From Micromonospora sp. KC213 (lineage in GTDB: Bacteria > Actinomycetota > Actinomycetes > Mycobacteriales > Micromonosporaceae): a DNA stretch of 64,000 nucleotides. Positions 24,060 through 63,062 of this stretch are shown piece by piece; positions within the stretch are counted from its first letter, which is position 1; the number at the start of each line of letters is the position of its first letter. Where the stretch lies: NCBI RefSeq assembly GCF_004348325.1, contig NZ_SMKF01000001.1:1-64000 (forward strand). Direction: 5' to 3'. The position numbers and the translations under genes are program-made. Under the pieces are notes generated by a model. The model did not search any database, was not told the DNA's origin, and saw only the letters and a program-made list of their open reading frames with translations.

Positions 24060-24365
24060 CCGCCTGCGAAGTGGTCGGTAAGGGCAGTGGCACCTACCAA
24101 CCCTTGAGATGGAAGGCCTCGTCCGGGCCGCCCTCGGCGAACCGGAACTGGTCGACACCATCCCCGCCGAGACCGCGCTCGGAGCCGAACCACCATCAGG
24201 CGGCGGTGCGCGAGGCGCTCGCCGGGTTGCCGCACGTACCCGTCCGGTTGGGCGTACCGGGGTCCACCGTGCTCGTCGCCGACGCCGTAGCGTAGTCGAC
24301 TGCTGGCTAGAATGGTCGTCCCGCAGGTTCGGCTGGCCTGCGGGACGAGCCTTCGGGGGGGTGAC
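24060..24365 (+). other. Short stretch with a frameshifted coding remnant
   Basis: Two adjoining plus-strand frames look like one broken C-terminus: EGLVRAALGEPELVDTIPAETALGAE (about 24112-24190), then after a shift AAVREALAGLPHVPVRLGVPGSTVLVADAVA, stop near 24295. I do not recognise the family. It is probably a degraded gene between the sugar operon and the HAD gene. Confidence 0.3.
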
Positions 24366-29336: not shown

Positions 29337-29356
29337 GTCCTGGGGAGGACGTCCTG

Positions 29357-43494: not shown

Positions 43495-44241
43495 AGAGAT
43501 CACTGAAGGACGTCTCGAAGCTCGGTGAAGGTCCTACCTGGTAACAGTGCTGCCGGTCACCCTGCCGGGCAGTGTGGTGCAGGTCGGCGATACCAGAAGG
43601 GCTCTCGGAACCGGGCGGGCATCAGCCCCGGTGCACGAAAAGATCCACTCCGGGCGGGCTGCGGAAATCACCCGCACCCAGGCGTCTTCGACGATCGCCC
43701 GACCGAACAGGCGCCGGGGCAACGGGACAACCCTTAGCAGTCGGTCTCCACCGCCGTATCACCCCGCGCACGCGACCAGCCGCGCCAACGGCTCTTGGCC
43801 GAGGTGAAACCGCGGCCCGACACGACCATACACCGACCAGTTCCAGGTGGCCGTTGCTCCGGGCGCATGTTCGGTGTCGTCATTACTCTCGGCAGTTTTC
43901 CTGTCGTCCCCACCATCTGACATCAGCCTGGTGACCGCCATACGTTCCGCGCTGGTCACCCCACCAGCCGGGACCTGTTGAGGGTTCGCCCCACACGGCC
44001 ATGCGGGCGGTCTCGTTGACGAGCGGCGAGCCCTCAGAAATCACTGTGCGTGAACGTTGCGGGCCGCAACCTTCGATGATCGAGAGGTTGGACAACGACA
44101 GATGGACGTATATCATCCAAATACGAACGAGTCGCGGCTCGCGATGCGTTCCGCATGTTCAGATCAGCACACACATGGGGGTGCGGATTGACGGCACATG
44201 GCCCGCGGCATTTAGTCAGCCTCACTCAATCGGATCGCCGA
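43495..44241. other. 747-base region upstream of the StrR-like gene
   Basis: No gene supported on either strand. It should hold the promoter of the regulator gene. I looked for an N11-spaced StrR palindrome and did not find one, so no sign of autoregulation of that kind. Confidence 0.45.
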
Positions 44242-45273
44242 ATGAGCTCGGAGGAATCAAACTATTCGCAGCAGGACGTTTTTTTGGTGCCTGTCGAAGC
44301 GCTTCGACGCGGCGAATCTCCTCGCTTAGCGGGAGAGAACGAAGACCACATCGAGTTCTTTACGCAGACGGAGATGCCGCTCCCGCCGATCCTCGTACAT
44401 CGCCGCACTATGCGCGTCATCGACGGAAATCACCGACTAAGGGCCGCCGAGCGCCGGGGACAGGTCACCATCGCGGTTCGCTTCTTCGAAGGCGACGACG
44501 AGCGTGCTTTCATCGAGGCCGTCCGCGCCAACCAGGCACACGGCCTGCCGATGTCGCTGGCAGACCGTGAGGCCGCCGCGACGCGCATCCTGCAGTCCAG
44601 CCCTCAGCGATCAGACCGGGCCGTGGCCGCCATCACCGGGCTGGCGCCCGGCACGGTGGCGGCGATCCGTCGCCGCACCGCCGTCGGGGACGTGGACGGG
44701 GTTGCCCGGGTCGGCCGGGACGGCAGGGTGCGACCGTTGAACAGCGCAGAGGGCCGGCGGATGGCGAGCGAACAGATCGCCAGGCGGCCCGAGGCGACTC
44801 TTCGAGAGATCGCGCGGAGCGCCGGAATCTCACTTGCCACCGCCCGAGACGTACGTGAACGCGTGCGTCGCGGCGACGACCCGGTCCCCGCGAAGATGCG
44901 TCGCGGCGGCGAGCCTGTCGGGGACGACCGCGCACCCGCCCCGGTCCGCCGCATGCCTAGGGAACCCCAGTCGAGCCAGAGCCCCGCAGCGGCGGGATGC
45001 ACATGCGCCGACGGCTGCGCCGAACCGGTCCAGGACCAGACCGGCCTGCTGCGGAGCCTTTCCAGGGACCCGTCGCTGAGGTTCAGCGAATCAGGCCGCA
45101 TGATGCTGCGCTGGCTCTACGCGCGAGCCGCCGGACCCGCGGGATGGGAAGAGGCGATGAGCGGGTTGCCGCCACACTGCGGGTACCTCGTCGCCAAGGC
45201 CGCCCGTAACTGTGGCGCCCAGTGGCTGGAATTCGCCTCGATAGTCGAACGCAAGCTCGGATCGACCGCCTAG
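44242..45273 (+). CDS. StrR/ParB-type pathway-specific transcriptional activator
   Basis: A 343-residue protein of the StrR/NovG/KasT group. The ParB-like N-domain reads FLVPVEALRRGESPRLAGE, HIEFF, LPPILVHRRTMRVIDGNHRLRAAE and ANQAHGLPMSLADREAAATRI. A helix-turn-helix follows at about residues 183-207 (EATLREIARSAGISLATARDV). The C-terminal part has a small Cys cluster (CTCADGC). Leu29 is a TTA codon (44326-44328), which in streptomycetes makes translation depend on the bldA tRNA. A run of seven T (44279-44285) lies near the start. No strong ribosome site precedes the ATG. It is the likely activator of the cluster through the three N11 palindromes. Confidence 0.88.
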   Translation: MSSEESNYSQQDVFLVPVEALRRGESPRLAGENEDHIEFFTQTEMPLPPILVHRRTMRVIDGNHRLRAAERRGQVTIAVRFFEGDDERAFIEAVRANQAHGLPMSLADREAAATRILQSSPQRSDRAVAAITGLAPGTVAAIRRRTAVGDVDGVARVGRDGRVRPLNSAEGRRMASEQIARRPEATLREIARSAGISLATARDVRERVRRGDDPVPAKMRRGGEPVGDDRAPAPVRRMPREPQSSQSPAAAGCTCADGCAEPVQDQTGLLRSLSRDPSLRFSESGRMMLRWLYARAAGPAGWEEAMSGLPPHCGYLVAKAARNCGAQWLEFASIVERKLGSTA

Positions 45274-45350: not shown

Positions 45351-48173
45351 ATGACCAGCGTTGAAAGCCGGGCCCAGGAAATCCTGGCGCAGCTCACTCT
45401 GGACGAGAAGATCGCCATGTTGTATGGCCAGATGCCCGCGGTGGACCGGCTCGGACTGACCGAGTTCCACACCGGCGGCGAGGCGGTGCACGGCCTGGTG
45501 GCGTCCTCACCCACCACCGTGTTTCCGCAGGCGGTGGGCCTCGCCGCAACCTGGAACCCAGACCTGATGGGCGCCATCGGCTCGGTCATCCTGGCGGAAC
45601 TGGAAGCCCTGCTGCCCGCCGACCCGCCGGATCCGCGGTTGGGCCGCAACCTTTGGGCACCCGTGGTCAATCTGCTCCGCGATCCCCGCTGGGGCCGCAA
45701 CGAGGAAGGGTACAGCGAAGATCCGCACCTGACGGTCGCGCTGGCCGTCGCGTACTGCCGCAGCCTGCGCGGTGACGCGTCACAGTGGCGGGTCGCACCG
45801 ACCCTCAAGCATTTCACCGCGAGCAACCACGAGAACGACAAGTTCGGCGAGTCCGTCAGTGTACGGCCGCGGGTGCTGCACGAATACGACCTGCCGCCGT
45901 TCCTGGAGCCGATCCGCGCCGGCGTCGTGGCCTCCGTCATGCCCTCATACAACGTGGTAAATGGTCGACCCAACCACGTCAGCCCGCACCTACGGCTTCT
46001 CCGTGAAGAAGATCCGGATGTGGTGATTGTCGCGGACGGCCACGCGTCGGCGGACATAGTCAAGAAAAGTCACTTCTACGAGAACTTCACGCTGGGGTTC
46101 GCGGCAGCCCTTCGGGCAGGTCTCGACAGCTTCACCGACGACCTGAAAATCACCATGACCGCTCTCTACGACGCCTTCCGGCTCGGCCTGCTGAGCGAAG
46201 AGGACATCGACCCCGCCGTCGGGCGGATACTGCGGATGCGGTTGCGGCTTACCGACGCTTTTCAGACGCCCGCCCCGACCGGGACGAACAGGCTGAACAC
46301 CCCGGATCACGAGCGCCTGGCGCGGGAGGCGGTGCGCCAGTCCATCGTGCTGCTCCAGAACGACGGGCTGCTGCCGCTACACCCCGAGGACGGCCGCAAG
46401 GTGGCCGTCGTCGGGCCGCTGGCCGACCGGGTCTGTCGTGACTGGTACGGAGGCATCCCCCCCTACCGGGTCACGCCGCTTGATGGCCTCCGGTCTCAGG
46501 TGGGTGACTCCCGGGTGGTGTTCGACTCGGGCCTGGACCGCATCGCCCTGCGGCTGGCGGCAGGCGGCGACTACCTCGCCGTGGCATCCGGCGATGACGC
46601 GCTGCGGGTGGCCGCTGGGAAGCTCACTGACGCCGCCTGCTTCGACGTGTTCGACTGGGGCGAGGGCGGCCTCTGTCTACGCTCCGTGGGCAACGGCCAG
46701 TTTCTGTCTCTGGCCAGCACAGAGCAACTGCGCTGCGACAAGCTGGAGCCGTACGACTGGAACATCATGGAGACCTTCCGGCTCGTCCGGGACGGGTCCT
46801 CCTGGCTGCTGCAGAATCATTTCACCGGGCGCTACGCGGCGATCGGCGATGACGGCGTAGCGGTCGTGGTCCCGGACGCGGATGCGGCGAGCAGGCTGGA
46901 CCTGGAAGTCGTGCACCGGGGCACGGAAACGGCTGCCGAGGCTGCCCGGGCAGCAGACGTCGTGATCGTCCTGGTCGGAACCTATCCGCACATCAACGGC
47001 AGAGAGATGAAGGACCGCGACGACCTCAACCTCCCGGCGGCGCAGGAGGAGCTGACACATGCCGTCATCGATGCGAACCCGCACACTGCGGTCGTCCTCG
47101 TAGCCGGGCATCCGGTCGCCGTGCCGCGGATCGCCGAGCGTGCCCGTGCCCTGCTTTGGTCGTCGCACGGCGGTCAGGAGTTCGGCAACGGCCTGGCGGA
47201 TGTGCTTTTGGGGGTGTGTAGTCCCGCGGGACGGCTGCCCCAGACCTGGCCGCGCGACGTCGAGGACCTTCCCGACATTCGTGACTACGACATCATCAAG
47301 AGCCGGCTGACATACCTCTACTCGGACCGCGACCCGCTGTTCGCCTTCGGCCACGGCCTCACCTATGCCGAGTTCCGCTACCGCGACCTGGCCGTCGAGC
47401 CGTCGGTCGCCGCCCCCGGTGGCCGGGTGACCATCACCGGGGTCATCGACAACGTCGGCCCCGCCGACTCCGACGATGTCGTCCAACTCTACGTTCGCGC
47501 GCTCGACTCGCCGGTGCCGCGCCCCCGGCGCGAACTGGTTGCCTTCGATCGGATCATGGTGCCCGTCAACGCCAAGCGGCAGGTCGAGTTTTCGCTGGCC
47601 GTAGACCGCCTCAGCTTCTGGGACGTCGGTCGCGGCCGGTTCGCGATCGCCCCCGGCCGCTACGAGTTCATGCTCGGCCGAAGCGCGACAGCGATCGAGT
47701 GCACTGCGATCCTCACAGTCCAGGCACCCGAGCTGCCACCGCGCGACCTCAGCACGGCGCTCGTGCGCGCGGTCGACTTCGACGACTACGAGGCAGTGCG
47801 GATCATCGATGAGACGCCGCGACAAGGCGAGGCGGTGCTCGCCAGCCAGCCGGGCGCCTGGCTACTGTTCCGCGACGCGGACCTCGGCGCAGGCGCAGAC
47901 CGCGTGGTCGCCAGGCTGGGCGGCGGTGAACCCGGCGCGCGGATCGAGGTTCGGCTCGACCATCCGGTGAACGGTCGGCTGCTCGGCGGCGTCGGCGTGG
48001 TCGAGCCGGACCTGCGCGGATGGGCCACGGTCGAAGCTCCGCTCGCCCCAGCCGAGGGCCGGCACGACCTCTATCTGGTGTTCTCGGCACCTGCGCGGCT
48101 GGCATCGTTCGTGCTGCATCGGTCGGCACACGAGTTCCCACCGCAACAGGCCCTTCCCGTCGACCGCTCCTGA
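45351..48173 (+). CDS. GH3 beta-glycosidase paralog 2
   Basis: A 940-residue GH3 enzyme with the same five-part layout as the gene at 36801, including the beta-trefoil insertion (LCLRSVGNGQFLS) and the C-terminal CBM6-like domain (GAWLLFRDADLG). Unlike its paralog it keeps the active-site set: GGEAVHG (42-48), K153-H154 in LKHFTASNHE, and nucleophile D229 in VVIVADGHAS. No signal peptide, so it acts inside the cell on a beta-glucoside or beta-xyloside. It starts 77 bases after the StrR-like gene and is followed by a HAD gene. It may trim a sugar from a cluster intermediate. Confidence 0.85.
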   Translation: MTSVESRAQEILAQLTLDEKIAMLYGQMPAVDRLGLTEFHTGGEAVHGLVASSPTTVFPQAVGLAATWNPDLMGAIGSVILAELEALLPADPPDPRLGRNLWAPVVNLLRDPRWGRNEEGYSEDPHLTVALAVAYCRSLRGDASQWRVAPTLKHFTASNHENDKFGESVSVRPRVLHEYDLPPFLEPIRAGVVASVMPSYNVVNGRPNHVSPHLRLLREEDPDVVIVADGHASADIVKKSHFYENFTLGFAAALRAGLDSFTDDLKITMTALYDAFRLGLLSEEDIDPAVGRILRMRLRLTDAFQTPAPTGTNRLNTPDHERLAREAVRQSIVLLQNDGLLPLHPEDGRKVAVVGPLADRVCRDWYGGIPPYRVTPLDGLRSQVGDSRVVFDSGLDRIALRLAAGGDYLAVASGDDALRVAAGKLTDAACFDVFDWGEGGLCLRSVGNGQFLSLASTEQLRCDKLEPYDWNIMETFRLVRDGSSWLLQNHFTGRYAAIGDDGVAVVVPDADAASRLDLEVVHRGTETAAEAARAADVVIVLVGTYPHINGREMKDRDDLNLPAAQEELTHAVIDANPHTAVVLVAGHPVAVPRIAERARALLWSSHGGQEFGNGLADVLLGVCSPAGRLPQTWPRDVEDLPDIRDYDIIKSRLTYLYSDRDPLFAFGHGLTYAEFRYRDLAVEPSVAAPGGRVTITGVIDNVGPADSDDVVQLYVRALDSPVPRPRRELVAFDRIMVPVNAKRQVEFSLAVDRLSFWDVGRGRFAIAPGRYEFMLGRSATAIECTAILTVQAPELPPRDLSTALVRAVDFDDYEAVRIIDETPRQGEAVLASQPGAWLLFRDADLGAGADRVVARLGGGEPGARIEVRLDHPVNGRLLGGVGVVEPDLRGWATVEAPLAPAEGRHDLYLVFSAPARLASFVLHRSAHEFPPQQALPVDRS

Positions 48174-48229
48174 CCGACCATGCCAGACATGGCAGTCAGC
48201 CGGTCCCGGCGTGGAAGGTAGCCATCAGG

Positions 48230-49021
48230 ATGATCACGATCCCACTTCCCCATGAGCCCACGACGTCGGCTGCCGCACGACGCCGGCCACCCCTGGTGCG
48301 CCCACGTGCGCTTCTGGTCGACCTCGATGACACCCTCCTCGACGGCGCCCACACCGCTCTGGCGATCGACGGCACCTGCGCCGCGCTCGCGTCGTCTTTC
48401 GCCCTCGAGAAGGCGCAACTGCGCGAGGCGTACTCGGCCGTGTGGACCGCACTACGACCGGAGGTGGAGCTGCCCTGCTGGCTCGGCCAGATGAATGGCG
48501 AGGCAGCGCTCCGGGAGACCTGGCGCCGGGCGCTGCGCCGGGCCGGTCTCGCCGATGAACGGGCAGCCGAGTTCGCGGTGGAGCGATACCAGGCCATCGC
48601 GCGCTCGGCGTACCGTCTGTTTCCGGACGTTCCTGGCTTGTTCGCGACGACGGCTCGGATGCAGATCCCGGTGGTTCTGGTGACGAACGGGCCCTCGGAT
48701 GTGCAGCGGGACAAGCTCCGCGCCCTGGGTCTCGGGTCGACGTTCGACGCCGTCGCGATCTCTGGCGAGATCGGCTCCGCCAAGCCCGACCCGGCCCTGT
48801 TCGTCGCGGCCCTGCATCGGATCGGCGCCGATCACCGCGAGGTCTGGCACGTGGGTGACGGACTCACCAACGACGTCGGCGGGGCCCGTGCGGCCGGGCT
48901 CGTAGCCGTCTGGCTGAACCGCACGGGGCGGCCGACTCCGGTCGACCGTTGTCCCGACGTCGAGGTGACGTCGCTGGCTCAGCTCAGCGCACTGCTGCTC
49001 GGCAGTGCTGCGGCGTCGTAA
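48230..49021 (+). CDS. HAD-superfamily hydrolase (phosphatase)
   Basis: A 263-residue HAD enzyme: motif I ALLVDLDDTLLDGAH, motif II VVLVTNGPSDVQRDKL, motif III AKPDPALF, motif IV WHVGDGLTNDVGGARAAG. The helical cap between I and II (about residues 40-130) is that of the N-acylneuraminate-9-phosphatase/haloacid-dehalogenase subclass. It follows GH3 paralog 2 and converges on a phosphoribosyltransferase-like gene. In neomycin-type pathways a phosphatase follows phosphoribosylation, so a similar role here is possible but not proven. Confidence 0.8.
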   Translation: MITIPLPHEPTTSAAARRRPPLVRPRALLVDLDDTLLDGAHTALAIDGTCAALASSFALEKAQLREAYSAVWTALRPEVELPCWLGQMNGEAALRETWRRALRRAGLADERAAEFAVERYQAIARSAYRLFPDVPGLFATTARMQIPVVLVTNGPSDVQRDKLRALGLGSTFDAVAISGEIGSAKPDPALFVAALHRIGADHREVWHVGDGLTNDVGGARAAGLVAVWLNRTGRPTPVDRCPDVEVTSLAQLSALLLGSAAAS

Positions 49022-49040: not shown

Positions 49041-50948
49041 TCAGGCTGCGTCTAGCAGATGCCGGGCGAGACTTGCCACACCTCCGAGTTCGCGCTCCCG
49101 GTGGGTGAAGCCGTCATCACCGTTTCGGACCTGGCGGCCCATCCATCGGGCCACGTGGTCGCGGTAGTATCCGAACTCGCGCAACGCCCGGCTGACGTGC
49201 TGCAGCATCCCGAAGGCCAGCCGCCCGCGGGACGGGCGGTCACCGCAGTACACGGCATACCGGTCCGCGATGTGGTCGACCTCGGCCGGAGTGAGGTCCA
49301 GTTCCACGGCTGCCGCGCCGATGTCCTCGGCGGGATCGCTGCGCCGCAGGACGTTGCCAACCTCCCGATGCAGCTTCAGGAGCCCGCCGTCTGGCCGCCG
49401 CAGATAATGCCAATGCCCGTTGTTCGGCGCTGCCGCGACCACGGGCACCCACGCCTCGTTGACGGCGGCGATGATTTCGGCCGCGGTCGGGAGGCCGCGA
49501 ACACCTCGCCCGCGCAGCTCCTCGACGACGGCGCGGATCCGCAGCGCCGCACCTTCCCGCGGCAGATAGGTCCCACCGGGAGCGTGCTGGCCAGCGAACG
49601 CCGCCACCGCCGCAACCGCGTCGAGGTCTGCCGTATGGATGCGGCCCGGCCCGGAGCGGTCGCGGAACGGCAGCGGGGAGCCGGGCTCCCAGGCGTACAG
49701 GAGATATCCGCCGACGATGCCGTAGGGGCGCGGATAGTGTGGCAGTACCGAGAGCCGACGCAGCTCCTCGTCAGCGAAGTAGCCGAATCCGAGCGGCTTG
49801 GCCACCAGAGCTGACTCCCCCTCCTCCGACCGTATCCGCAGCAGGTAACGGCGGTGCCGGACCACTCCGTGCACGTAAGGCGCCACGTCTGCCGGCGCCG
49901 CGCCAGTTATGGTCGCCGCGTACCGCAGCGCGTAGCCGTAATCCAGCGGCCGGACATCCAGCACGTCGGCCGGCTGCGACCGTCGGGACAGGTGCCGTTC
50001 GAAGTAGCCATGCACCGTTTTCGTCGGAGGCGCCTTGTGAGTGGCCTGAGGCCAACGCATGTGGCCTCCACGAACGACGAGGACATTCGGTGCGGCGATG
50101 TCGAGTTTCCCGGTTAGTTCAGCCATAGATGAGCAGCGGTAGAGCGACACAAGAATCTCGTGCCGCGGAGTGCCCTCGGACGCGAGAAAGTCCAGTACGG
50201 ATCTGACCGTTCTGCCGGTACCCGCGAGATCGTCGACGACAACGACGCGTCGGCCCCGCAGCCGGTTGGTATCCAGCTTGTGGTCCAGCATGGCCGGCAG
50301 CGCGGGTATGCGGGCGCGAAGCGAGGCGTGGACGGGTCGGACGGTGAGGAACTCCGCCGTCGTGTGCTCGGCACGGATGGCGGCCGCCCAGATGGGTCCG
50401 AGGTAGCTTCCGCTGGTGCGCAAACCTATGACGGCTCGGGGCTCCGGCGCAGCCGTGCGGACCAGGGCCGCGACCTGACGCGCGTACGAGCGCCAGTCGA
50501 TCGGCTCGGTGCTCAGGCACTCGGGCCAGATGGGCCACGTGTCCAGGTACTCGAAAATGGGCAGCCGCCCGCTGTTCGCCACGTGCCGCCGCCACTGTGT
50601 ATTCAGATCGTCCACCGTTGGGAGGTCGGTGATCAGACGTCGAACGCCATCCGCCCACGAGGCGTCGACCGCCCGGTCGAACCACAGCGCGCCGGCGGCG
50701 TCGACCGACGCAGCGCGCAGGGGCTCACCCCGTCGCCGCCACCACTCTCCGGCACCTGCCTCACCAAGCACCGCGGCGACGTCTGAGACGGTCTGCTCCA
50801 GGCTGCACAGCCGCTCGTACAGCTCGGTCGTGATTTCGGACGTGGTCAGCGCCGCGGCCGCTGCGGCACGCAGGTGCGCGTACCGCGACCAAGACGGGCC
50901 ACTACCCGCACGGCTGTCCAGACTGGCGTCTGCGGTGAATTGAGGCAT
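49041..50948 (-). CDS. Type I phosphoribosyltransferase domain fused to a kinase-like C-domain
   Basis: A 635-residue protein. Residues 1-150 are an unrecognised helical region. Residues 150-260 form a type I PRTase: a GLRTSGSYLGP phosphate loop and the PRPP-binding RRVVVVDDLAGTGRTVRSVLDF motif. After about residue 330 a segment resembles a small-molecule kinase: YLLRIRSEEGESALVAKPLGFGYF as ATP lobe, YLLYAWEPGSPL hinge, PNNGHWHYLRRPDGGLLKLH in the catalytic-loop place. However, the HxD...N pattern is not canonical. It lies 62 bases behind the ribosomal-protection gene on the same strand. It may be a transferase acting on the product or on nucleotides; I know no described protein with this fusion. 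Confidence 0.65.
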   Translation of the reverse strand: MPQFTADASLDSRAGSGPSWSRYAHLRAAAAAALTTSEITTELYERLCSLEQTVSDVAAVLGEAGAGEWWRRRGEPLRAASVDAAGALWFDRAVDASWADGVRRLITDLPTVDDLNTQWRRHVANSGRLPIFEYLDTWPIWPECLSTEPIDWRSYARQVAALVRTAAPEPRAVIGLRTSGSYLGPIWAAAIRAEHTTAEFLTVRPVHASLRARIPALPAMLDHKLDTNRLRGRRVVVVDDLAGTGRTVRSVLDFLASEGTPRHEILVSLYRCSSMAELTGKLDIAAPNVLVVRGGHMRWPQATHKAPPTKTVHGYFERHLSRRSQPADVLDVRPLDYGYALRYAATITGAAPADVAPYVHGVVRHRRYLLRIRSEEGESALVAKPLGFGYFADEELRRLSVLPHYPRPYGIVGGYLLYAWEPGSPLPFRDRSGPGRIHTADLDAVAAVAAFAGQHAPGGTYLPREGAALRIRAVVEELRGRGVRGLPTAAEIIAAVNEAWVPVVAAAPNNGHWHYLRRPDGGLLKLHREVGNVLRRSDPAEDIGAAAVELDLTPAEVDHIADRYAVYCGDRPSRGRLAFGMLQHVSRALREFGYYRDHVARWMGRQVRNGDDGFTHRERELGGVASLARHLLDAA

Positions 50949-51010: not shown

Positions 51011-53008
51011 CTAGATTCGCCCGCTGACACGCAACAGGTACTCCTTGCGGTTGAGCGGATTCTTGTCTGAGCGGCGGCGCGTCGGTGCCGGGCCCGTGAC
51101 GGGGTCGTATCGGTCAAACTGGAGCTCGATTACTCCCTCACCGTGGGTCCGACCGGGAAGCTGGATCTGCACGCCGGTCACCTCCGCGGCAGGGATACTG
51201 CCGCGCACGGAGACCCACGTGTCGGACATCAGCGGCGCTTCGGGAATCGCGCGATGCTGAGCGAGCAGGCGCAGCACAGCCGAGAATGTGTCCGCGGGCG
51301 CTTCGACGTGGAACCGGTGGATGGGCTCACACACCACCGTGCCGGCCCGTCGCAGCGCGTCCATCAATACGAGCGGTGTGAGTTTGCGGAAATCTGAGGC
51401 AGACGTGCCCGGAGCCGTGTAGGCACAGTCATCCATGGTCACGATGCAGTCGGTGACCTGCCAGCCGGCGAGTCCCTGTTGCAGGGTTTCCGCGACATAC
51501 CGGGCCATCGCCTCCCGGAACGCGTCAACCGTCTTGTAGACGAAGAGTGGGATCGCCGAGACATCGACCGCGAGGCGGAAATCTGTCCCGCTGCCCACCG
51601 CTCCCGGCGCGACCGTGATGCCGACGGTGGCAGGGAACGGGTTGTCGGCACCACCGAGCCGCTCCACCGCACTGCCGCTGCCCGTTGGCCGCTCGACGCA
51701 GATGGTCGTCGTCTCACGAAACTCGATGCGCAGCCCGAAGTCGGCGGCGAGCGTCTGCTCGATGACCTCCTTCTGCACCTCGCCGTAGAGCGAGAGGAAC
51801 AGCTCCTGCCGTGAGTCGTCCTGACGGAGGTTGATAAACGGATCCTGCTCGGCGAGCTGGGTGAGCGCGGCGTGCAGCGCGGCTTTCTGGGCCGGATCGC
51901 ACGGTGCCACGGCGGTGTCCAGAGTTGGTGGGGCGAACAGATCAACGGTCGGTCGGCTCAGGGTGGTGCCGACGGGGTCGCCGACCCTGGCGCCCGTCAG
52001 TCCGGAGAGTTTCGCGATCTGACCCGCCACGACGGAGCTACTGTCTACGGCGCCGCCGGGCTGGAAGGTCTTGACAGAGGTCACACTCGCCTCGTTGCCG
52101 GCCCCGAAGGGCAGCCGTTGGCGGCGGTGCACGGCCCCGGAGAACATCCGCACGTACGCGACCTTGTCGCCCTGTCGCTCCCGCTCGACCTTGAAGACAA
52201 GCCCCGAGGCCGGCTCACCGCTGTCGGCCGGTACGGCGGGAAGGAGTTCCGGCAGTGCCGCCATCAGCGGACCGACGCCGGTGCCGGTGATGGCAGAGCC
52301 AAAAAACACCGGAAAGACCTGACCGCGCCTGGTCTGTGCGGCGAGGTTGGCGTACAGGGCGCCCGGCGTCATGGGACCAGGACGTTCGTCCACGACCGCT
52401 TCGAGAAGAGACTCGTCGTGGTCGGACAGTGTGTCGACAAGGACATCGACGAAGCGCTCGTCGGCACGGTCGAACGGAACGAATGACGCGTCCCTTGTCC
52501 CGGCGGCGTGGGTCACGCCCATGGGCACCACGGCCGGCGTAAGCCGTTCGCGGATCCTGTTCAGGACCAGATCAGGATCGGCGCCCGCGCGGTCGATCTT
52601 GTTGACGAAGATGAGGGTGGGGATCGCGAGCCGGCGCAGCGCGCGCATGAGAACGATTGTCTGGCTCTGAACGCCCTCGACGGCGGAAACGACGAGTACC
52701 GCTCCGTCGAGGACGGCAAGCGATCGGTTCACCTCGGCGATGAAGTCGGGGTGGCCCGGGGTGTCGATCAAGTTGACGGTCACGTCCTTGACGGAGAACG
52801 CCACGACGGCCGCCCGGATGGTGATGCCACGCTGGCGCTCCAGCGCCAACGAGTCCGTTTGCGTGGTGCCCTCGTCCACGCTGCCGACCTTCTCGAGCAC
52901 GCCGGCCTCATGAAGGAGCGCCTCGCTGAGGCTGGTCTTTCCGGCGTCGACGTGCGCCAGAATTCCGAGGCTCTGGCTCTTCACGAGCTGCGCGTGGTCA
53001 CGCGGCAC
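51011..53008 (-). CDS. Ribosomal-protection GTPase, Tet(M)/OtrA-like
   Basis: A 665-residue EF-G-like translational GTPase: G1 AHVDAGKT (18-25), switch I GTTQTDSLALERQRGITI, G3 DTPGHPDF (82-89), G4 NKID (136-139). The short G domain without the EF-G insert, the domain order and the length (639-663 in the family) match tetracycline-type ribosomal-protection proteins such as Tet(M) and OtrA, not housekeeping EF-G (about 700 residues). Such proteins remove an antibiotic from the ribosome. Its place in the cluster and the StrR-type box before it point to self-resistance. Its real ligand is probably the cluster product. Confidence 0.85.
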   Translation of the reverse strand: MPRDHAQLVKSQSLGILAHVDAGKTSLSEALLHEAGVLEKVGSVDEGTTQTDSLALERQRGITIRAAVVAFSVKDVTVNLIDTPGHPDFIAEVNRSLAVLDGAVLVVSAVEGVQSQTIVLMRALRRLAIPTLIFVNKIDRAGADPDLVLNRIRERLTPAVVPMGVTHAAGTRDASFVPFDRADERFVDVLVDTLSDHDESLLEAVVDERPGPMTPGALYANLAAQTRRGQVFPVFFGSAITGTGVGPLMAALPELLPAVPADSGEPASGLVFKVERERQGDKVAYVRMFSGAVHRRQRLPFGAGNEASVTSVKTFQPGGAVDSSSVVAGQIAKLSGLTGARVGDPVGTTLSRPTVDLFAPPTLDTAVAPCDPAQKAALHAALTQLAEQDPFINLRQDDSRQELFLSLYGEVQKEVIEQTLAADFGLRIEFRETTTICVERPTGSGSAVERLGGADNPFPATVGITVAPGAVGSGTDFRLAVDVSAIPLFVYKTVDAFREAMARYVAETLQQGLAGWQVTDCIVTMDDCAYTAPGTSASDFRKLTPLVLMDALRRAGTVVCEPIHRFHVEAPADTFSAVLRLLAQHRAIPEAPLMSDTWVSVRGSIPAAEVTGVQIQLPGRTHGEGVIELQFDRYDPVTGPAPTRRRSDKNPLNRKEYLLRVSGRI

Positions 53009-53482
53009 CCCGCCACCAAAGACTCACCACGGCAAGGCCCAGCTTCTCGTCCCGGTCGCATCCCTACCATCTTTGACGATCCCATACCGTCAGGCAAGCG
53101 ATCTCGGCTTGCTCGCCATATCAGCAGATCGACGGGGCTGCAACTTCTGCCGCACATCACCAAGGCGTTCACGTCACGCCTCGGGCCAAGGACGGTCCAC
53201 ACCTCGCGCAACTGCGCACCTTGCACAGTCGAACAACCACCCATCGCCTCCAGCGGCCCGGCAGCATGCGGGAGCACGACGGAAGTCCATCGGCGTCCAT
53301 CTACGAAGAACGGTGGTAGCCTCTGGCGACAGGCGAGGTGGTTGGCACCTGACGGTTTGCACCTCCGGATATGTCGCGCACCCACATCTATTACCGCTCG
53401 GCGGTCGTCAGCCTGGCGTCATAGGCGACGGGGATGTCGAAGCATTCTTGCGGTGAACGTCGCGGTCCATGGGGAGGATCAA
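53009..53482. other. 474-base divergent control region
   Basis: It lies between the ribosomal-protection gene (minus) and the oxidoreductase-NRPS operon (plus). No gene inside is convincing. It contains the best StrR-type palindrome of the window (53206-53234), which could activate both directions. Confidence 0.55.
53206..53234 (+). promoter_or_regulatory. StrR-type operator 3
   Basis: GCGCAACTG (53206-53214), an 11-base spacer (53215-53225), then CAGTCGAAC (53226-53234). The right half equals the StrR consensus half site exactly (9 of 9). Confidence 0.75.
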
Positions 53483-54604
53483 TTGAGTAGTTCACCGAAG
53501 GTCCGGTGCATCCTCGTAGGCATCGGCCGGCGGGCGTTGGAGGATTACGTCCCAGCGCTGGTCGACCTCTCGGAGAACATCGAGTTCGTAGCCGCCTGCG
53601 ACGTCGATCCTATGGCGCAGGGACGGCTCGCCGAGGAGTTGGGCAAGCATGGCCGCGCGTGCCCGCCCTTCTTCACCGACCGGACAGCGGCGCTGGACGC
53701 GTCACACCCCGACCTGGCGGTGGTCGCCACACCGCACCACACCCATTTCGAGGTCACCAAGGATCTGGTCCTACGCGGAATCCCGGTGTTGAAAGAAAAA
53801 CCCTTCGCCATCTCGTTGGCTGAGGCGCACGAACTCGCCCATCTGATCTGGCAGCGCGACGGCCACGTGCGCATCTGCGTGCAGAGACGCTATCATCCGC
53901 TCTATCTCCACGCCAAGCAGGCGTTGGCAGCGCTCGGCCAGATAAGGCACTTCGATGCGTCATACCAACTGAACGCCGACGCCTACCAAGATGGCTGGCG
54001 AGCGAGCCCGGAAACGGCGGGCGGCGGTGCCATCATCGACATGGGTTATCACATCGTCGATCTCCTGCACTGGTTCTTCGGAGTTCCTTCCGTCGTATAC
54101 GCGACCACCGCACCCAAGCTCATTCCGACGGCAGGTTACACAATCGAAGAAACCGTCCTTGCGAACCTGACGTACGACACCGGAACGACAGGGACCTTCC
54201 GCCTCTCGCTGTGCGAGGCCGCCAAGGAGGAGGCCATCCGGGTCTACGGCACCAAGGGCCACATCACGCTGAGGCGAGACCTCTTCGAACGCTTCGACAG
54301 GTCGAACAACCGGGTTGAGCACCTCACCGGTGACCGCGGCTGGGCATCCGCGGCGGATGTCCTAGTCGACACGGTCGCGCGTCTGCAAGACCGAGCCGTG
54401 GTGGCGCAGGAGCTCGCCGCCGCCGTGGACATCACCGCCACCATCGAGTCGCTCTACCACTCGATCGCCCAGCAAGCCCCCGTCAAACCGATGTGCCAGG
54501 AGATGTGCAGTGTCTGCTACAACGCTCGCCTTGGATGGCGGGATTCCGGTTCTCGGCCAGCCGACGGCGTATCCCTGGCCCAAGCTTCGACCGGACTGGT
54601 GTGA
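53483..54604 (+). CDS. Gfo/Idh/MocA-family oxidoreductase
   Basis: A 373-residue NAD(P)-dependent enzyme: Rossmann start VRCILVGIGRRALEDYVPAL, VVATPHHTHFEVTKDLVLRGIPVLKEKPFA (the EKP motif), and GGGAIIDMGYHIVDLLHWFFG with the catalytic Asp/His region. TTG 53483 is chosen for GGGGAGG 5 bases upstream; GTG 53453 is the alternative. It oxidises a ring or sugar hydroxyl, which could prepare a ketone for the aminotransferase that follows. Its last 95 bases overlap the next gene in another frame. This is unusually long, so its C-terminal 30 residues may come from a late frame change. Confidence 0.8.
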   Translation: MSSSPKVRCILVGIGRRALEDYVPALVDLSENIEFVAACDVDPMAQGRLAEELGKHGRACPPFFTDRTAALDASHPDLAVVATPHHTHFEVTKDLVLRGIPVLKEKPFAISLAEAHELAHLIWQRDGHVRICVQRRYHPLYLHAKQALAALGQIRHFDASYQLNADAYQDGWRASPETAGGGAIIDMGYHIVDLLHWFFGVPSVVYATTAPKLIPTAGYTIEETVLANLTYDTGTTGTFRLSLCEAAKEEAIRVYGTKGHITLRRDLFERFDRSNNRVEHLTGDRGWASAADVLVDTVARLQDRAVVAQELAAAVDITATIESLYHSIAQQAPVKPMCQEMCSVCYNARLGWRDSGSRPADGVSLAQASTGLV

Positions 54605-55820
54605 GGCTGTCAGCCAGCAGTTGGCCAGCGGTCGACTGTCGATCTACGACCGATCCGGCGTGGTCGCCGAGTTCGAGGATGCCTGGTCGGAGGGGCACTC
54701 GCTGCCGTACTCCCTGGTGACGAACTCCGGCACCGCCGCGCTGCACTCCGCGTTCTACGGCATCGGGCTGGGCCCGGGCGACGAGGTGCTGTGTCCGACG
54801 TATACGTTCTTCGCCACCGCCGCCTCCCTGTTCCAGCTCGGCGCCCTCCCCGTGCTCGTGGACTGCCGGCCCGACGGAGCCTTCGACACCAACCACGCGG
54901 CCGCGCTGGTCACCGAGCGGACCAAGGCGGTCGTCGTCACCCACATGTGGGGTCTGCCGTGCGAGATGGACGACGTCGTGTCGTTCGCGTCCCGGCACGG
55001 CCTCGACCTGATCGAGGACTGCTCGCACGCGCACGGTGCCACCTACGCCGGTCGTCGGGTCGGCACCTTCGGCGCGGCGGGGGCGTGGAGCCTGCAAACC
55101 CAGAAGCTCATCGCGGCAGGTGAGGGCGGCGTGCTCGCCACCGACCGGCGGGATGTGTACGACCGGGCGCAACTACTCGGCCACTTCAACAAGCGTGCCA
55201 TGAAGGAGATGGACCCCGAGGGGCCGCTGTACCCGTACGCGGTCACCGGCCACGGCCTGAAGTACCGCGCGCACCCACTCGGCATCGCTTTCGCCCTGCC
55301 GCAGGTAGCGGAGCTGACGGACTGGATCGACGCCAAGCAACGCTACGCGCGGCGGCTGGCCGAACTGTTCCACCGCATCGACGGTGTCACCGCGGTCACT
55401 CTGTCTCGCGACGGCCGGGTGTCGGCGCACTACGCGCTGCTGTTCGAGGTGGATCCGAAGGTCCTGCCGGGCGGGCGGGACTGGCTGGTGGCCGCCTGTA
55501 ACGCCGAGGGCCTCGAGGACATGGACGTGCCGAAGGCCACCTCGCCGCTGCACACCCTGCACCTGTTCCAGGCACCGACCTCGCCCGTGACGTCCTACGA
55601 CCGGCCGTGTGTGCGGGCCGCGTACCCGGTCGCGGAGCACCTGGCCGCCCACACGTTCAAGATCTCGGTGCCCTGCGCGCCGCGGACCTTCGAGGACGAG
55701 GACGACCGATACGTGGAGGCGGTCGGTAAGGTCACCGACAAGATCGCCGGATACCTCGCGGAACGCCGAGCCCAGCAGGCCAGCGCAAGGCTGGCGCCGG
55801 TCGGACGGGGTGTCGAGTGA
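54510..55820 (+). CDS. DegT/DnrJ/EryC1/StrS aminotransferase, second copy
   Basis: A 436-residue sugar/cyclitol aminotransferase: LALDGGIPVLGQPTAYPWPKL, TNSGTAALHSAFYGIGLGPGDEV, IEDCSHAHGATYAG, and the PLP Lys K199 in WSLQTQKLIAAGEGG. It differs clearly from the copy at 27028 (ATGEGG-type versus LTSGEGG loop), so it likely acts on another ketone, presumably the product of the oxidoreductase before it. GTG 54510 has GGAG 8 bases upstream. It is translationally coupled to the NRPS gene (GTGA overlap). Confidence 0.85.
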   Translation: MSATTLALDGGIPVLGQPTAYPWPKLRPDWCEAVSQQLASGRLSIYDRSGVVAEFEDAWSEGHSLPYSLVTNSGTAALHSAFYGIGLGPGDEVLCPTYTFFATAASLFQLGALPVLVDCRPDGAFDTNHAAALVTERTKAVVVTHMWGLPCEMDDVVSFASRHGLDLIEDCSHAHGATYAGRRVGTFGAAGAWSLQTQKLIAAGEGGVLATDRRDVYDRAQLLGHFNKRAMKEMDPEGPLYPYAVTGHGLKYRAHPLGIAFALPQVAELTDWIDAKQRYARRLAELFHRIDGVTAVTLSRDGRVSAHYALLFEVDPKVLPGGRDWLVAACNAEGLEDMDVPKATSPLHTLHLFQAPTSPVTSYDRPCVRAAYPVAEHLAAHTFKISVPCAPRTFEDEDDRYVEAVGKVTDKIAGYLAERRAQQASARLAPVGRGVE

Positions 55821-57745
55821 TCGGCACGTCGACGCACGTCGGTTCCGGACAAAACACGGAGGCCCGCGGCATTGGTCCCGCGTTGCCGGACGCCGCCGCA
55901 CCCGTCCACCGGCAGGTGTGGGCCGTTGCGGATCGAGAACCGGCCTCGGTTGCCGTGCAGGACGGCGACGGAGAACTCACCTACGGTGATCTTCGGCCCG
56001 GTGCCCACCGGCTGGCCGCCCAGCTGACCACCCTCGGATGCCATCCCGGCGGACGGGTGGCGGTCGTCTGCGAACCCTCCATCGCCATGGTCGTGGCGTT
56101 GCTCGGGGTCCTGGAGGCCGACGCCGCATACGTTCCGGTCGACCTGTCGCTTCCCCACACGCGTATCCAGGCGATCCTGTCAGACGCAAGCGTGTCCGCC
56201 GTGGTCGCCGACGGCCGCGGGCGGGAGGTGCTTGGCAGCGCGTTGCCGTGGCATGCCGCGACCGAGGACCTCGCCGTCGCCACACTGCACGCCGAAGACG
56301 CACCGGCGACAGCCGCGACGGGCGACGCAGCGTATGTCATCTACACCTCGGGAACCACCGGTGAGCCCAAGGGGGTCGTGGTCGGCCACGCCCAACTAAC
56401 CGCGTCCACCACAGCTCGCGAGCTGATCTATCCCGGCACGTCGACGTTCCTGCTGGTCTCCCCGCTGGCTTTCGACTCGTCGGTCGCCGGTATCTGGGGG
56501 ACGCTGACGACGGGTGGCCGCCTCATCGTCGCGTCGGCCGAGCAGACGCGCGACGTCGAGCAACTGGTGGGCCTGATCGCCCAGCACGGCGTCACCCGAA
56601 CGCTGTGCATCCCTTCGCTCTACGGACAGATCCTGGACCTTGTCGAGAGTGACCCGGCCGGCCCGCTGTCGACCCTGGACACCGTCATCGTGGCCGGTGA
56701 GCCACTACCAGAGCGGGTTCTGCGGCGCCATTTCGCCATCCACCGCGCCGGTGTGGCGCTCGTCAACGAGTACGGCCCCACCGAGGCAACCGTCTTCGCG
56801 ACCTACCGGCGGTACCTCTCGCCGGGCCCGGTCACGATCGGCCACCCCATTCCGGGCGCCCGCCTCTATGTACTCGACGAACAGGGACGACCCGCCGAAC
56901 CCGGTGTAGAGGGCGAGTTGTACATCGGCGGGGCGGGCGTCGCGGACGGTTACCTGGGCCGGCCGGACGCCACGGCACGGGCCTTCCTGCCCGACCCGTT
57001 CGCACCACAGGCCGGCGCCCGAATGTTTCGCACCGGCGACATGGTCCGCTGGACCGCGGACGGCGAGCTGTGCTTCCTCGGCCGCCGCGACCACCAGGTG
57101 AAGATCCGCGGCCACCGGGTAGAACTGGGTGCTGTCGAGGCCGAGCTGCGCCGTGTGCCGCGCGTCAAGGACGCTGTCGTGCTGCCCAATCCCGCGGCCA
57201 CACAGTTGACGGCATTCGTGACCACCGCGGAGCCGACCTCGAAGACCGCGCTACGGCAGCATCTCGCCGAGCGTCTCCCGCCCGTCATGGTGCCGGCCAC
57301 CTTCCACACGGTGCCCCAGTTCCCGCTCACCCCCAACGGCAAGGTGGACCGCGACCGGCTCGCGGAGACGCTCCGGTCCGCCGGTGCGGGGCCAGCCGAC
57401 GACCACCTGGCCCAGGTCGGCCCCACGGCGATGGACGGAACGGTCGCGCGGGTGAGCGCGGCCTGGGCGCAGGTGTTGAGAATCGACAACGTTCCCGCGG
57501 ATGTGAATTTCTTCGACCTTGGCGGACACTCGCTGGCGATGTTCCAGCTACAAGATGCGCTGGAACACCACACGGGCACACGCCCATCCATCGTGGCCTT
57601 GTTTCGCCACACCACCGTCGCCGAGCAGGCCTCCTACATCGACGGGGGCCCTCCGGGCCCGGCCGGCACCGCGACCACGCAGGAGCGCGCCCGGGCCGCA
57701 CGAACCGCGCGGATACAGCGGGCCAAAGGAGGCCGCAGCGGATGA
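55817..57745 (+). CDS. Stand-alone NRPS adenylation-carrier protein (A-PCP)
   Basis: A 642-residue protein. The A domain has YTSGTTGEPKGV (176-187), FDSSVAGIW (219-227), NEYGPTEATV (317-326), GELYIGGAGVADGYLG, FRTGDMVRW, and catalytic K509 in PNGKVDRDRL. A peptidyl carrier follows with the phosphopantetheine Ser in FFDLGGHSLAMFQ (S572). There is no condensation or thioesterase domain. By eye the pocket residues read D-S-A-C-I-A-E-V-F; I know no match, so the amino acid is open. It loads one amino acid for hand-over to a tailoring enzyme or transferase. It is followed by a type II thioesterase (ATGA overlap). Confidence 0.88.
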   Translation: MIGTSTHVGSGQNTEARGIGPALPDAAAPVHRQVWAVADREPASVAVQDGDGELTYGDLRPGAHRLAAQLTTLGCHPGGRVAVVCEPSIAMVVALLGVLEADAAYVPVDLSLPHTRIQAILSDASVSAVVADGRGREVLGSALPWHAATEDLAVATLHAEDAPATAATGDAAYVIYTSGTTGEPKGVVVGHAQLTASTTARELIYPGTSTFLLVSPLAFDSSVAGIWGTLTTGGRLIVASAEQTRDVEQLVGLIAQHGVTRTLCIPSLYGQILDLVESDPAGPLSTLDTVIVAGEPLPERVLRRHFAIHRAGVALVNEYGPTEATVFATYRRYLSPGPVTIGHPIPGARLYVLDEQGRPAEPGVEGELYIGGAGVADGYLGRPDATARAFLPDPFAPQAGARMFRTGDMVRWTADGELCFLGRRDHQVKIRGHRVELGAVEAELRRVPRVKDAVVLPNPAATQLTAFVTTAEPTSKTALRQHLAERLPPVMVPATFHTVPQFPLTPNGKVDRDRLAETLRSAGAGPADDHLAQVGPTAMDGTVARVSAAWAQVLRIDNVPADVNFFDLGGHSLAMFQLQDALEHHTGTRPSIVALFRHTTVAEQASYIDGGPPGPAGTATTQERARAARTARIQRAKGGRSG

Positions 57746-58524
57746 ATGATCCGGAGATCTGGTTCCAACGATGGGCGTCGGGCCTGACGCCGACCTACCG
57801 CCTCGTGTGCTTCCCACATGCGGGTGGGTCGGCGACTTTCTATCGCGGCTGGGCCGCGCATCTGCCAGGCGCCGAGGTGCTCGCGGTCCGCTATCCGGGA
57901 CGGGCCGAACGAATCGAGGAGCCGCCGCCGGCTGACCTGAAGCGGCTGGCACGCGACATCGCGGAGGCGCTCGCACCGTGGACGGACCTGCCCATCGCGC
58001 TGTTCGGCCACAGCATGGGTGCCGCGGTGGCCCTGGAGACGGCACGCGCCCTCGAAGCCGCGGGAACCAGGATCCGGCACTTGTTCGCATCCGGTTCGCG
58101 CGACGCACCGCTGCCGGATCCAGCCGATCCGGCGGACAGCGCAGACACCGACGAGCGCGCGACCATCGAGCAACTCGCCAGCATCGGTGGCACCAGCCGC
58201 GAGATGCTGGAGGATCCCATGTTTCGCGAACTGGTGCTGCCCTACGTCATCGCCGACAGCCGGATGTTCCACGCCTACCGGATGTCCACCGACCCGATCC
58301 TGCACTCTCCGGTGACGGTGCTGACCGGTGACCGGGACGACCATGCGGACCTGCGACCGTGGGGCACCCTGACGGTGGCGCCGGTGGCGCGTCACATGGT
58401 CCCCGGCGACCACTTCTACCTCGTCGACGAGCCGCCGTACGACGTGCTGAACGCGGTACGGCCGGCGCTCGTCGACAGGCAACCCTTCGGATCCGACTCC
58501 CCTGAAAGCCGGTACGCATCGTGA
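57742..58524 (+). CDS. Type II thioesterase
   Basis: A 260-residue alpha/beta hydrolase of the GrsT/TEII type: RLVCFPHAGGSATFYRGWA, YPGRAERIEEPP, nucleophile Ser in ALFGHSMGAAVALETA, and final His in HMVPGDHFYLVDEP. Type II thioesterases clear wrongly loaded carrier proteins, or release the bound aminoacyl group. The latter is possible here because the carrier protein has no releasing domain of its own. Confidence 0.88.
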   Translation: MNDPEIWFQRWASGLTPTYRLVCFPHAGGSATFYRGWAAHLPGAEVLAVRYPGRAERIEEPPPADLKRLARDIAEALAPWTDLPIALFGHSMGAAVALETARALEAAGTRIRHLFASGSRDAPLPDPADPADSADTDERATIEQLASIGGTSREMLEDPMFRELVLPYVIADSRMFHAYRMSTDPILHSPVTVLTGDRDDHADLRPWGTLTVAPVARHMVPGDHFYLVDEPPYDVLNAVRPALVDRQPFGSDSPESRYAS

Positions 58525-59801
58525 GCGCTACGACGAAGCGGCAGCGCGACCGTCGCCACCTGTGGCACATCTGGTCGCCGCTAGCCGCCGATCTCACCCG
58601 CACCATGCTGGTCAAGGGCACCGGCGCATATGTCACGGATGTCGACGGCCACGAGTTCCTCGACGCATCCTCACTGAATCTCACCTGCGGATACGCGGCG
58701 CCCGACATCACGCGCGCGATCAGCGCGCAGGCATCCCGCCTGCACGGCTACGACCTGTCCGTGGCGACGCACGATCTCGCCGGCGCCGTGGCCGAGGGCG
58801 TGGCGAAGCTGATGCCCACCGCGCTGTCGCGGACCCTGCTGACCAACAGCGGCACGGAGGCGTGCGAGGCGGCGCTGCTCATCGCCGCCATGTACGCGCA
58901 GAACGTGGGCCAGCCACGGACGCGGGTGATCACGTTCTCGGCTGGCTACCACGGCTCCACCGTTATCTCCAGGAGTCTGTCGGGCCTACCGCACCTCGCG
59001 CACCCGTTCAACAGCCCTCTGCCGGTCAGCCGGGTCGACCTACCGCTCGCGCCCCGGCACATGCGAGTTCCGGAGGCGTTGGAGCCGCTGCTGTCCGCTT
59101 TCCGGGCCGCGCTGGCGGACGACCCGGATCTGCCACCACTCGCGGTGCTAGTCGAGCCGCTGCTCAACGTCGGCGGCGGAGTGGTACTGCCCGCCACGTT
59201 CCTCACCGAGTTGCGGCGTCTGTGCGACGACCACGGCGCCTTGCTCATCCTCGACGAGGTATCCACCGGGTACGGCCGTACCGGGCGCATGTTCGGCTTC
59301 GAGCACGACAGCGTGCTACCTGACATCGTCGTGTCCAGCAAAGGGCTCGCCGCCGGTTACGCGCCCATCGCCGCGGTCAGCGTGCGGGAATCGATCTACG
59401 CGACCTTCGATCGTGATCCGTTCATGGGTGGGCTGCGCTTCGGACAGACCACGTCGGGCCACGCGATCGCCTGTGCCGCGGCACTCGCCACCCTCGAGCT
59501 CATCGAGCGGGAAAAACTCGTCGAGCGCGCCGCGCATCTCGGTGAGAGCCTCCTGGCGTCAGTCCGTGGGCTGGTCGGCACCGGACGCGTCACCGACGTA
59601 CGGGGACTGGGACTTTTCGTGTCGCTGGAGTTCGAGGACCAGAACGCGGCGACGAACGCCGTCACCGCCGCCGCGGAGCACGGTTTGCTGCTGCGTCGCC
59701 AGGGTGCGGTGGTCATGGCCGTCCCGCCGCTCACACTGCAGGACGCGGACGCAACGGCGCTTCTCGAACGCCTGCGGCGTGCGGTGGAGCAGGCCGCATG
59801 A
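58521..59801 (+). CDS. Class III PLP aminotransferase
   Basis: A 426-residue omega-aminotransferase family enzyme: HLWHIWSPLAADLTRTMLVKGTGAYVTDVDG, NSGTEACEAALLIA, LLILDEVSTGYGRTGRMFGFEH, and the PLP Lys in VVSSKGLAAGYAPIAAVSV. Members act on omega-amino acids, diamines or 2,4-diaminobutyrate. It could make a non-proteinogenic amino acid for the A-PCP protein or aminate an aldehyde on the sugar. Starts GTG, overlapping the previous stop. Confidence 0.88.
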   Translation: MSATTKRQRDRRHLWHIWSPLAADLTRTMLVKGTGAYVTDVDGHEFLDASSLNLTCGYAAPDITRAISAQASRLHGYDLSVATHDLAGAVAEGVAKLMPTALSRTLLTNSGTEACEAALLIAAMYAQNVGQPRTRVITFSAGYHGSTVISRSLSGLPHLAHPFNSPLPVSRVDLPLAPRHMRVPEALEPLLSAFRAALADDPDLPPLAVLVEPLLNVGGGVVLPATFLTELRRLCDDHGALLILDEVSTGYGRTGRMFGFEHDSVLPDIVVSSKGLAAGYAPIAAVSVRESIYATFDRDPFMGGLRFGQTTSGHAIACAAALATLELIEREKLVERAAHLGESLLASVRGLVGTGRVTDVRGLGLFVSLEFEDQNAATNAVTAAAEHGLLLRRQGAVVMAVPPLTLQDADATALLERLRRAVEQAA

Positions 59802-61153: not shown

Positions 61154-61169
61154 GCGGAAGGGACTTGGT

Positions 61170-63039: not shown

Positions 63040-63062
63040 GAACGGCTCCACGAGGAGGCCCG

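Follow-up and report, generated by a model that had tools for sequence, protein, structure and literature searches.

Why should a ribosomal protection GTPase of the kind known from tetracycline resistance lie in a biosynthetic gene cluster that has no recognisable tetracycline genes? The question is raised by a 64,000-nt stretch of the genome of Micromonospora sp. KC213 (the window; positions 1 to 64,000 of contig NZ_SMKF01000001.1, assembly GCF_004348325.1). The strain comes from the Karakum desert (PMC12187853) and its assembly holds 6,426,733 bases in 363 contigs. The gene lies at 51011-53008 on the minus strand, starts with GTG and encodes 665 amino acids, which its open reading frame (ORF), profile matches, structure matches and motifs identify as a Tet-type ribosomal protection protein (RPP). 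An earlier note on this DNA had proposed it as the self-resistance gene of an aminocyclitol cluster. What is new here is a Tet-type RPP that is a fixed part of a cluster in which no tetracycline genes can be recognised, and that has a loop III of its own. We consider it probable, on the sequence evidence set out below, that this RPP is a genuine Tet-type GTPase giving self-resistance in a StrR-linked cluster of polyketide synthase (PKS), nonribosomal peptide synthetase (NRPS) and amino-sugar genes, whose product binds the A site of the 30S subunit.

The RPP has five EF-G-type Pfam domains (G, II, III, IV and C-terminal), all above their gathering cut-offs, and its GTPase motifs are undamaged: the P-loop AHVDAGKTS, switch I, switch II DTPGHPDF with its histidine, NKID and GSA. 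Its best matches among solved structures are TetO and TetM. The top NCBIfam model is Otr(A) (NF000120), at 669.9 bits against a curated cut-off of 900, followed by tet_protect (NF012153), at 657.9 bits against 775, so neither cut-off is reached; the best NCBIfam EF-G model scores 270.8 bits. A predicted structure of the RPP alone had a mean pLDDT (predicted local distance difference test) of 35.9 and was set aside as evidence.

In a first tree of 47 rows, in which the program flagged long branches, the RPP and the Tet and Otr proteins separated from EF-G with support of 97/93. The second tree, of 32 rows, dropped the longest of the flagged rows, added others and excluded loop III, and gave 100/100 for the same split. 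The RPPs of KC213 and Micromonospora sp. KC606 form their own branch on the Tet/Otr side (100/100). The nearest row to that branch in the second tree is an RPP-type protein, L100 (91/94); in the first tree, which lacked L100, the branch stands alone. A joint clade of the RPP with the Otr(A) group was neither supported nor rejected in the second tree (p-AU 0.135). Model scores, solved-structure matches and trees all bear out the Tet(M)/OtrA-like identity given in the earlier note, and the phylogeny against OtrA, the Tet families and EF-G paralogs puts the protein on the Tet/Otr(A) side, not among EF-G paralogs. By sequence, the gene product is a full-length RPP of the Tet/Otr side that fails to pass as Otr(A), and it is a separate lineage, scoring too low to count as an Otr(A) or as a tetracycline RPP by NCBIfam cut-offs. 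We rejected the idea that it is the genome's only copy: a second RPP-type paralog, 44% identical, lies outside the cluster on contig C144.

The RPP is conserved together with the cluster. KC606 has the same gene order, inverted, from a GH31 gene (31981 in KC213) to about position 78066 of the KC213 contig, beyond the end of the window. Its RPP is 83% identical to that of KC213 (552 of 665 alignment columns), with dN 0.099 and dS 0.558 (nonsynonymous and synonymous divergence, NG86 method) and a dN/dS of about 0.18; on this comparison the gene is kept by purifying selection. Directly downstream of the RPP, after 62 nt, a gene on the same strand (49041-50948) encodes a 635-residue phosphoribosyltransferase-domain protein, which is likely to be co-transcribed with the RPP and has a 73% identical ortholog beside the RPP in KC606. 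Its long C-terminal part has no family match. At E 1e-20 it was matched in two of 160 genus genomes, KC213 and KC606. A pattern scan of an 84,980-species collection turned up a single relative, in KC606; the scan used two short peptide patterns, which distant relatives could escape, and may leave out the protein's own record. As KC606 keeps the RPP, this neighbour and the StrR-type box on the other side, the RPP belongs to the StrR-linked cluster, as had been proposed.

The G+C content is 68.0% in the conserved block (31981-78066), against 70.5% in the KC606 counterpart of the block; it is 66.8% in the RPP and 71.1% in the stretch right of the block. The left flank (1-24000) has 68.5%, and the low G+C of the block is therefore no proof of horizontal gain.

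The RPP does face an NRPS operon across a StrR-type box, as the earlier note described. The box, a 29-nt palindrome at 53206-53234, separates the Gfo/Idh gene from the RPP, and the interval originally given for the RPP ended exactly where the box does, at 53234. The plus-strand operon opens with genes for a Gfo/Idh oxidoreductase, a DegT aminotransferase and an NRPS adenylation and carrier protein (A-PCP). Over the box, 34 nt (53205-53238) are identical in KC606, whereas the rest of the intergenic region, its two gene-proximal ends aside, has mostly diverged. The box falls within a mechanically extended ORF (52508-54604), but upstream of the Gfo/Idh start assigned here (TTG at 53483, with the domain from about 53501).

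Site scans used a consensus that we take to be that of StrR boxes. A second palindrome, at 34666-34694, matches 17 of 18 positions and has a counterpart at 47702 in KC606 that matches all 18, and a third strict site, at 25284, precedes a block without a KC606 counterpart; both lie between called ORFs. Three sites in the 119.7 kb of the KC213 contig and two in the 88.0 kb of KC606 match the consensus at 16 or more of its 18 positions. For the KC213 contig, 60 first-order Markov simulations gave a mean of 0.017 and a largest count of 1. A looser scan, allowing up to three mismatches, found 14 sites in the window against 5.2 expected. The putative regulator is a StrR-like activator with a ParB-type N-terminal part (44155-45273, plus strand; 80% identical in KC606). 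It matches no NCBIfam or Pfam family above cut-off and was recognised by the annotations of its homologs, one being a 'streptomycin biosynthesis protein' and several carrying the label 'ParB N-terminal domain'.

The tip of domain IV, loop III, is where this RPP differs from its tetracycline counterparts. In Tet(M), Pro509 sits in the tetracycline site at C1054 (PMC8161019). Mutations in loop III alter the range of drugs, and Tet(M) is still active after alanine changes at 508-510 (PMC4750697). The loop reads AYTAPGTSASDFR in the RPP and YYSPVSTPADFR in Tet(M): the length is equal and Pro509 is kept, with its neighbours altered. For Tet(M) loop III residues beyond those named in the cited papers, the numbering is our assumption. 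The motif is APGTS in the RPPs of KC213 and KC606, against SPVST in TetM, TetO, TetW and Otr(A), and the RPP does not pass as SPVST-like.

We compared loop III across 65 distinct RPP-type sequences, after excluding eight EF-G-type or other factors and three duplicate rows. Nine have a 10-residue loop of tetracycline type, and in all nine the residue in the Pro509 column is proline; these are the RPPs of KC213 and KC606, TetM, TetO, TetW and four Otr(A)-like proteins. A 12-residue insert with a conserved RQS motif is found in 52, not one of which has a proline at that column; L047-L060, L070-L077 and L101 are among them. The other four, L078, L080, L100 and L102, have loops of 15, 15, 19 and 18 residues. 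Between KC213 and KC606, residues 523-552, the domain IV tip with loop III, are identical. This is the longest identical run after 42-73, around switch I, and loop III is therefore held fixed in the KC213/KC606 lineage. An altered loop III was also considered as a general mark of cluster-borne RPPs and found unsupported: tblastn with the proteins of the KC213 contig found no PKS/NRPS cluster in the stretches around L078, L080, L100 and L102 (L129-L132, of which L130 is only 6.6 kb). Five neighbours of L100 were scanned; four are of ordinary families and one has no family.

These results suggest that the product of the cluster acts on the ribosome. In the mechanism we propose, StrR would bind at the box and switch the cluster on, and the common box would drive transcription in both directions, into the RPP and phosphoribosyltransferase genes on one side and into the biosynthetic operon on the other. 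Being common to the RPP and the operon, it would make protection rise with the product. The RPP with GTP would then bind the factor site as EF-G does, its loop III would reach the decoding region near helix 34 and C1054 of the 16S rRNA and dislodge or exclude the product, and the RPP would depart after GTP hydrolysis. It would be the main protection, ahead of any APH-type kinase or export. The earlier note also suggested a product that binds in a tetracycline-like way or blocks a factor-binding step; tetracycline-like binding goes further than the evidence does. The length and proline of loop III are kept while its sequence differs, and Tet(M) gave no protection from streptothricin, another drug that binds helix 34 (PMC10187937).

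Several points weigh against this reading. The streptothricin result means that cross-protection is not automatic, and that an RPP acting on a new drug would have to be fitted to that drug. The RPP scores under the curated Otr(A) and tet_protect cut-offs, and its loop III motif is APGTS, not SPVST. The cluster was found in two genomes only, both of them from desert isolates of a single genus described in the same study. Resistance might also come mainly from an APH-type kinase encoded in the conserved block. In a 7-strain panel KC213 and KC606 inhibited P. aeruginosa only, with zones of 12 and 7 mm against a positive threshold of 10 mm, and Micromonospora 15K316 gave 6 mm on the same species in the same panel (PMC12187853). 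The panel therefore establishes no ribosome-inhibitor phenotype.

What the product may be can be read in part from the operon. All its genes lie on the plus strand, and identities are to KC606. The Gfo/Idh/MocA oxidoreductase (53483-54604) is followed by the DegT/StrS aminotransferase (54510-55820; 87%), with 2-deoxy-scyllo-inosose aminotransferases among its better PDB matches, the A-PCP protein (55817-57745; 73%) and a thioesterase that is probably a stand-alone type II enzyme (57742-58524, scanned within ORF 57070-58524; 77%). Then come a class III aminotransferase (58521-59801; 86%), a protein of the pyrimidine-nucleoside phosphorylase family that passes the TIGR02644 cut-off (59798-61153; 85%) and a TauD-family dioxygenase (61164-62075, scanned within ORF 60627-62075; 77%). 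The window ends with an alpha/beta hydrolase (62062-63039, its start proposed from the translation) and a family 2 glycosyltransferase (GT2) with NCBIfam matches under the cut-offs (63040-64000, running on to contig position 64220; start approximate). Beyond the window the conserved block holds genes for an inositol monophosphatase, a PIG-L-type deacetylase, two cupins, a PKS with ketosynthase, acyltransferase and acyl carrier domains, an NRPS of the order adenylation, carrier, condensation, a P450, a PhyH-type dioxygenase and the APH-family kinase (74297-75169; 85%).

Three adjoining genes (58521-62075), all present in KC606 at 77-86%, point to an aminoribosyl unit. The closest PDB match of the class III aminotransferase is 7QZJ, SapH (422 bits, the next 191), a nucleoside 5'-aldehyde aminotransferase that also performs the natural reaction of LipO (PMC10127198). 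LipL, LipO and LipP together convert UMP to 5-amino-5-deoxyribose-1-phosphate (PMC4902027). The TauD-type dioxygenase has one weak PDB match, and the LipL-like role proposed for it is drawn from its family and position alone. By analogy with that pathway, the product may carry an aminoribosyl unit.

The claim that this is an aminocyclitol cluster has to be qualified. The conserved block does contain amino-sugar or aminocyclitol genes, and the label is suggested by the inositol phosphatase, the Gfo/Idh dehydrogenase and the DegT aminotransferase, a trio that fits amino-sugar routes as well. The cyclase-type gene does not share in this conservation. It encodes a dehydroquinate (DHQ)-synthase-like protein (29234-30496) and lies in a plus-strand block (24312-31707), with the StrR-type site at 25284, that also holds HAD, two GT2, DegT aminotransferase and MFS genes. 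This block is outside the KC606 cluster: the contig that carries that cluster lacks orthologs of the DHQ-synthase-like gene and its neighbours, and the GT2 and DegT proteins match there at 27-29% only. The DHQ-synthase-like gene was matched in four of the 160 genus genomes at E 1e-60, KC606 not being among them, and a direct search of KC606 gave two matches only, at 33-35% and on other contigs. We considered the block as the core of the cluster and found this unsupported, since it lies outside the conserved block; it is a separate or added module, and its part in the cluster is doubtful. The KC606-conserved block has no 2-deoxy-scyllo-inosose-synthase-type cyclase, the mark of 2-deoxystreptamine routes. 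With the DHQ-synthase-like gene missing from the KC606 cluster contig, nothing requires the core product to be an aminoglycoside of the 2-deoxystreptamine type. The contrast drawn earlier with aminoglycoside producers, which normally protect themselves by 16S rRNA methylation or modifying enzymes, is not a clean one, since the conserved block holds the APH-family kinase. From its sequence, this kinase is a possible second self-resistance gene.

Neither the scanned proteins of the window nor the conserved block included any recognisable tetracycline PKS genes, in agreement with the earlier note. The genome does have a likely type II PKS locus elsewhere, on contig C66, with paired ketosynthases, a cyclase, acetyl-CoA carboxylase and SARP-type genes, and contig C297 gave several ketosynthase matches (two proteins of that stretch were scanned). 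Tetracycline clusters use an asparagine-synthase-like amidotransferase. The genome has three asparagine-synthase matches, none on C66 or C297, and an endogenous tetracycline is therefore unlikely.

The left part of the conserved block is rich in glycosidase genes. It begins with the GH31 glycosidase (31981-34317, minus strand), and the genes that follow are on the plus strand: an Npun_R2821-like protein, perhaps a glycosyltransferase (35199-36050; 128 bits against a cut-off of 250; 82% in KC606), an FkbM-family methyltransferase (36055-36804; 89%), a GH3 glycosidase (36801-39650), a GH4 glycosidase (41276-42535) with a BadF-family ATPase (42523-43494), a second GH3 glycosidase, with CBM6 (45351-48173), and a HAD-family hydrolase (48020-49021), whose actual start is probably downstream of 48020.

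Could the RPP have another role? It might be a tetracycline-resistance gene that came to lie in the cluster by chance of insertion and guards against the tetracyclines of neighbours or of its own genome, not against the cluster product. In the length of loop III and in Pro509 it resembles tetracycline RPPs and departs from the 52 sampled sequences with the insert, and tetracycline activity is plausible given what Tet(M) tolerates at 508-510 (PMC4750697); the likely type II PKS locus would provide a source. We nevertheless think this unlikely, as the StrR box and gene order are kept in KC606, a second RPP-type gene is already present in the genome, and the three asparagine-synthase matches all lie off C66 and C297. 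Somewhat less probable again is that the APH-type kinase, perhaps with export, is the main self-resistance and that the RPP is an accessory translation factor that helps ribosomes to keep moving during production, dislodging no drug. The kinase is part of the conserved block, but its PDB matches are weak (MphH best, at E 2.4e-9, then APH(2'')-Id), the APH(3') model gives 42 bits against a cut-off of 205, and the domain IV tip of the RPP is Tet-like, not EF-G-like.

It is improbable that the product is not a ribosome inhibitor at all and that the RPP is a passenger there or has a regulatory role. Genes of nucleoside type are compatible with other targets as well, and the aminoribose-bearing muraymycins hit MraY (PMC4902027), but the RPP is under purifying selection and stands next to the box in both genomes. 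We give very little weight to its being an EF-G paralog without a resistance function. Such a protein might fall under the Otr(A) and tet_protect cut-offs as the RPP does, but the RPP models score 658-670 bits where EF-G models reach 270.8 at most, and both trees group the RPP with Tet and Otr(A). Self-resistance to a product acting at the 30S A site is the reading we prefer.

Relatives of the RPP are found elsewhere in the genus and class. Among 36 other Micromonospora genomes, 10 have full-length relatives at 56-60% identity, six more have relatives at 43-49%, one of them split in two pieces, and one has a partial match at 54%; the remaining matches listed are EF-G-like, at about 31-32%. A class survey found a match at E 1e-120 or better in 53 of 394 genomes, with no identity above 59% apart from the strain's own genome; KC606 is absent from that sample list. 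The viral contigs searched contained no relative. We searched 36 RPP flanks of 6.6-32 kb (L047-L066, L129-L142, L083 and L084) and found a similar cluster in none, by a search that detects relatives of this contig's genes only. Only isolated genes matched: L136, for instance, has an APH-type match (46%, 207 aa), and in L063 an AMP-binding protein adjoins BioY. Matches to ORF 52508-54604 that overlay RPPs were the antisense of the RPP and were discarded. As a control, the 20-kb stretch around L159, an Otr(A) above the cut-off, had no type II ketosynthase match, so the membership of that gene in a tetracycline cluster is not established.

In the part of the literature that was searched, we found no RPP described within a cluster of non-tetracycline type, and the producer-borne RPPs described there are those of tetracycline clusters. 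If the RPP is dedicated to the product of this cluster, EF-G-like protectors can specialise for other drugs, and a resistance gene would predict the target of a product ahead of its discovery. We suggest, more tentatively and with less than even confidence, that ribosomal protection is not for tetracyclines only: this RPP would be dedicated to a 30S A-site inhibitor of a new class, a polyketide-peptide with an aminoribosyl unit and an inositol or amino-sugar base, and APGTS would be the specificity element of the RPP. If that is true, loop III would vary among actinobacterial RPPs as a tip specific to the drug, and the clade with the 12-residue insert would serve yet other drugs. The drug specificity of RPPs, through loop III, becomes a directly testable question in laboratory strains.

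Among known systems, the precedents for RPPs within producer clusters are otrA and ctcC of tetracycline producers (PMC6804068). The RPP is on the same family side, lies inside a cluster in the same way, and shares its loop III length and Pro509 with Otr(A) above the cut-off. It differs in being 45% identical to such an Otr(A), L069, in scoring under the Otr(A) cut-off, in having APGTS for SPVST, and in a cluster with no recognised tetracycline PKS. Tet(M), Tet(O) and Tet(W) have the same EF-G-like domains, GTPase motifs, C-terminal extension and loop III length, whereas the RPP is only 31-35% identical to them, is chromosomal, stands beside a StrR-type box and belongs to an actinobacterial lineage. 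The chromosomal RPP-type proteins of Micromonospora and other actinobacteria are closer, the nearest being about 53-60% identical over their full length, but no similar cluster adjoins them in the sample and 52 of the 65 distinct sequences have the loop III insert. The dioxygenase, SapH/LipO-type aminotransferase and phosphorylase genes are adjacent here as in the LipL-LipO-LipP pathway of A-90289/muraymycin-type nucleosides, and are joined here to PKS/NRPS, inositol-type and glycosidase genes. The regulation resembles that of antibiotic clusters under StrR or Dbv4: a StrR-like activator is present and the 29-nt palindrome has the span of the Dbv4 site, GTCCAR(N)17TTGGAC (PMC6022936). In KC213, however, the box precedes a ribosomal protection gene.

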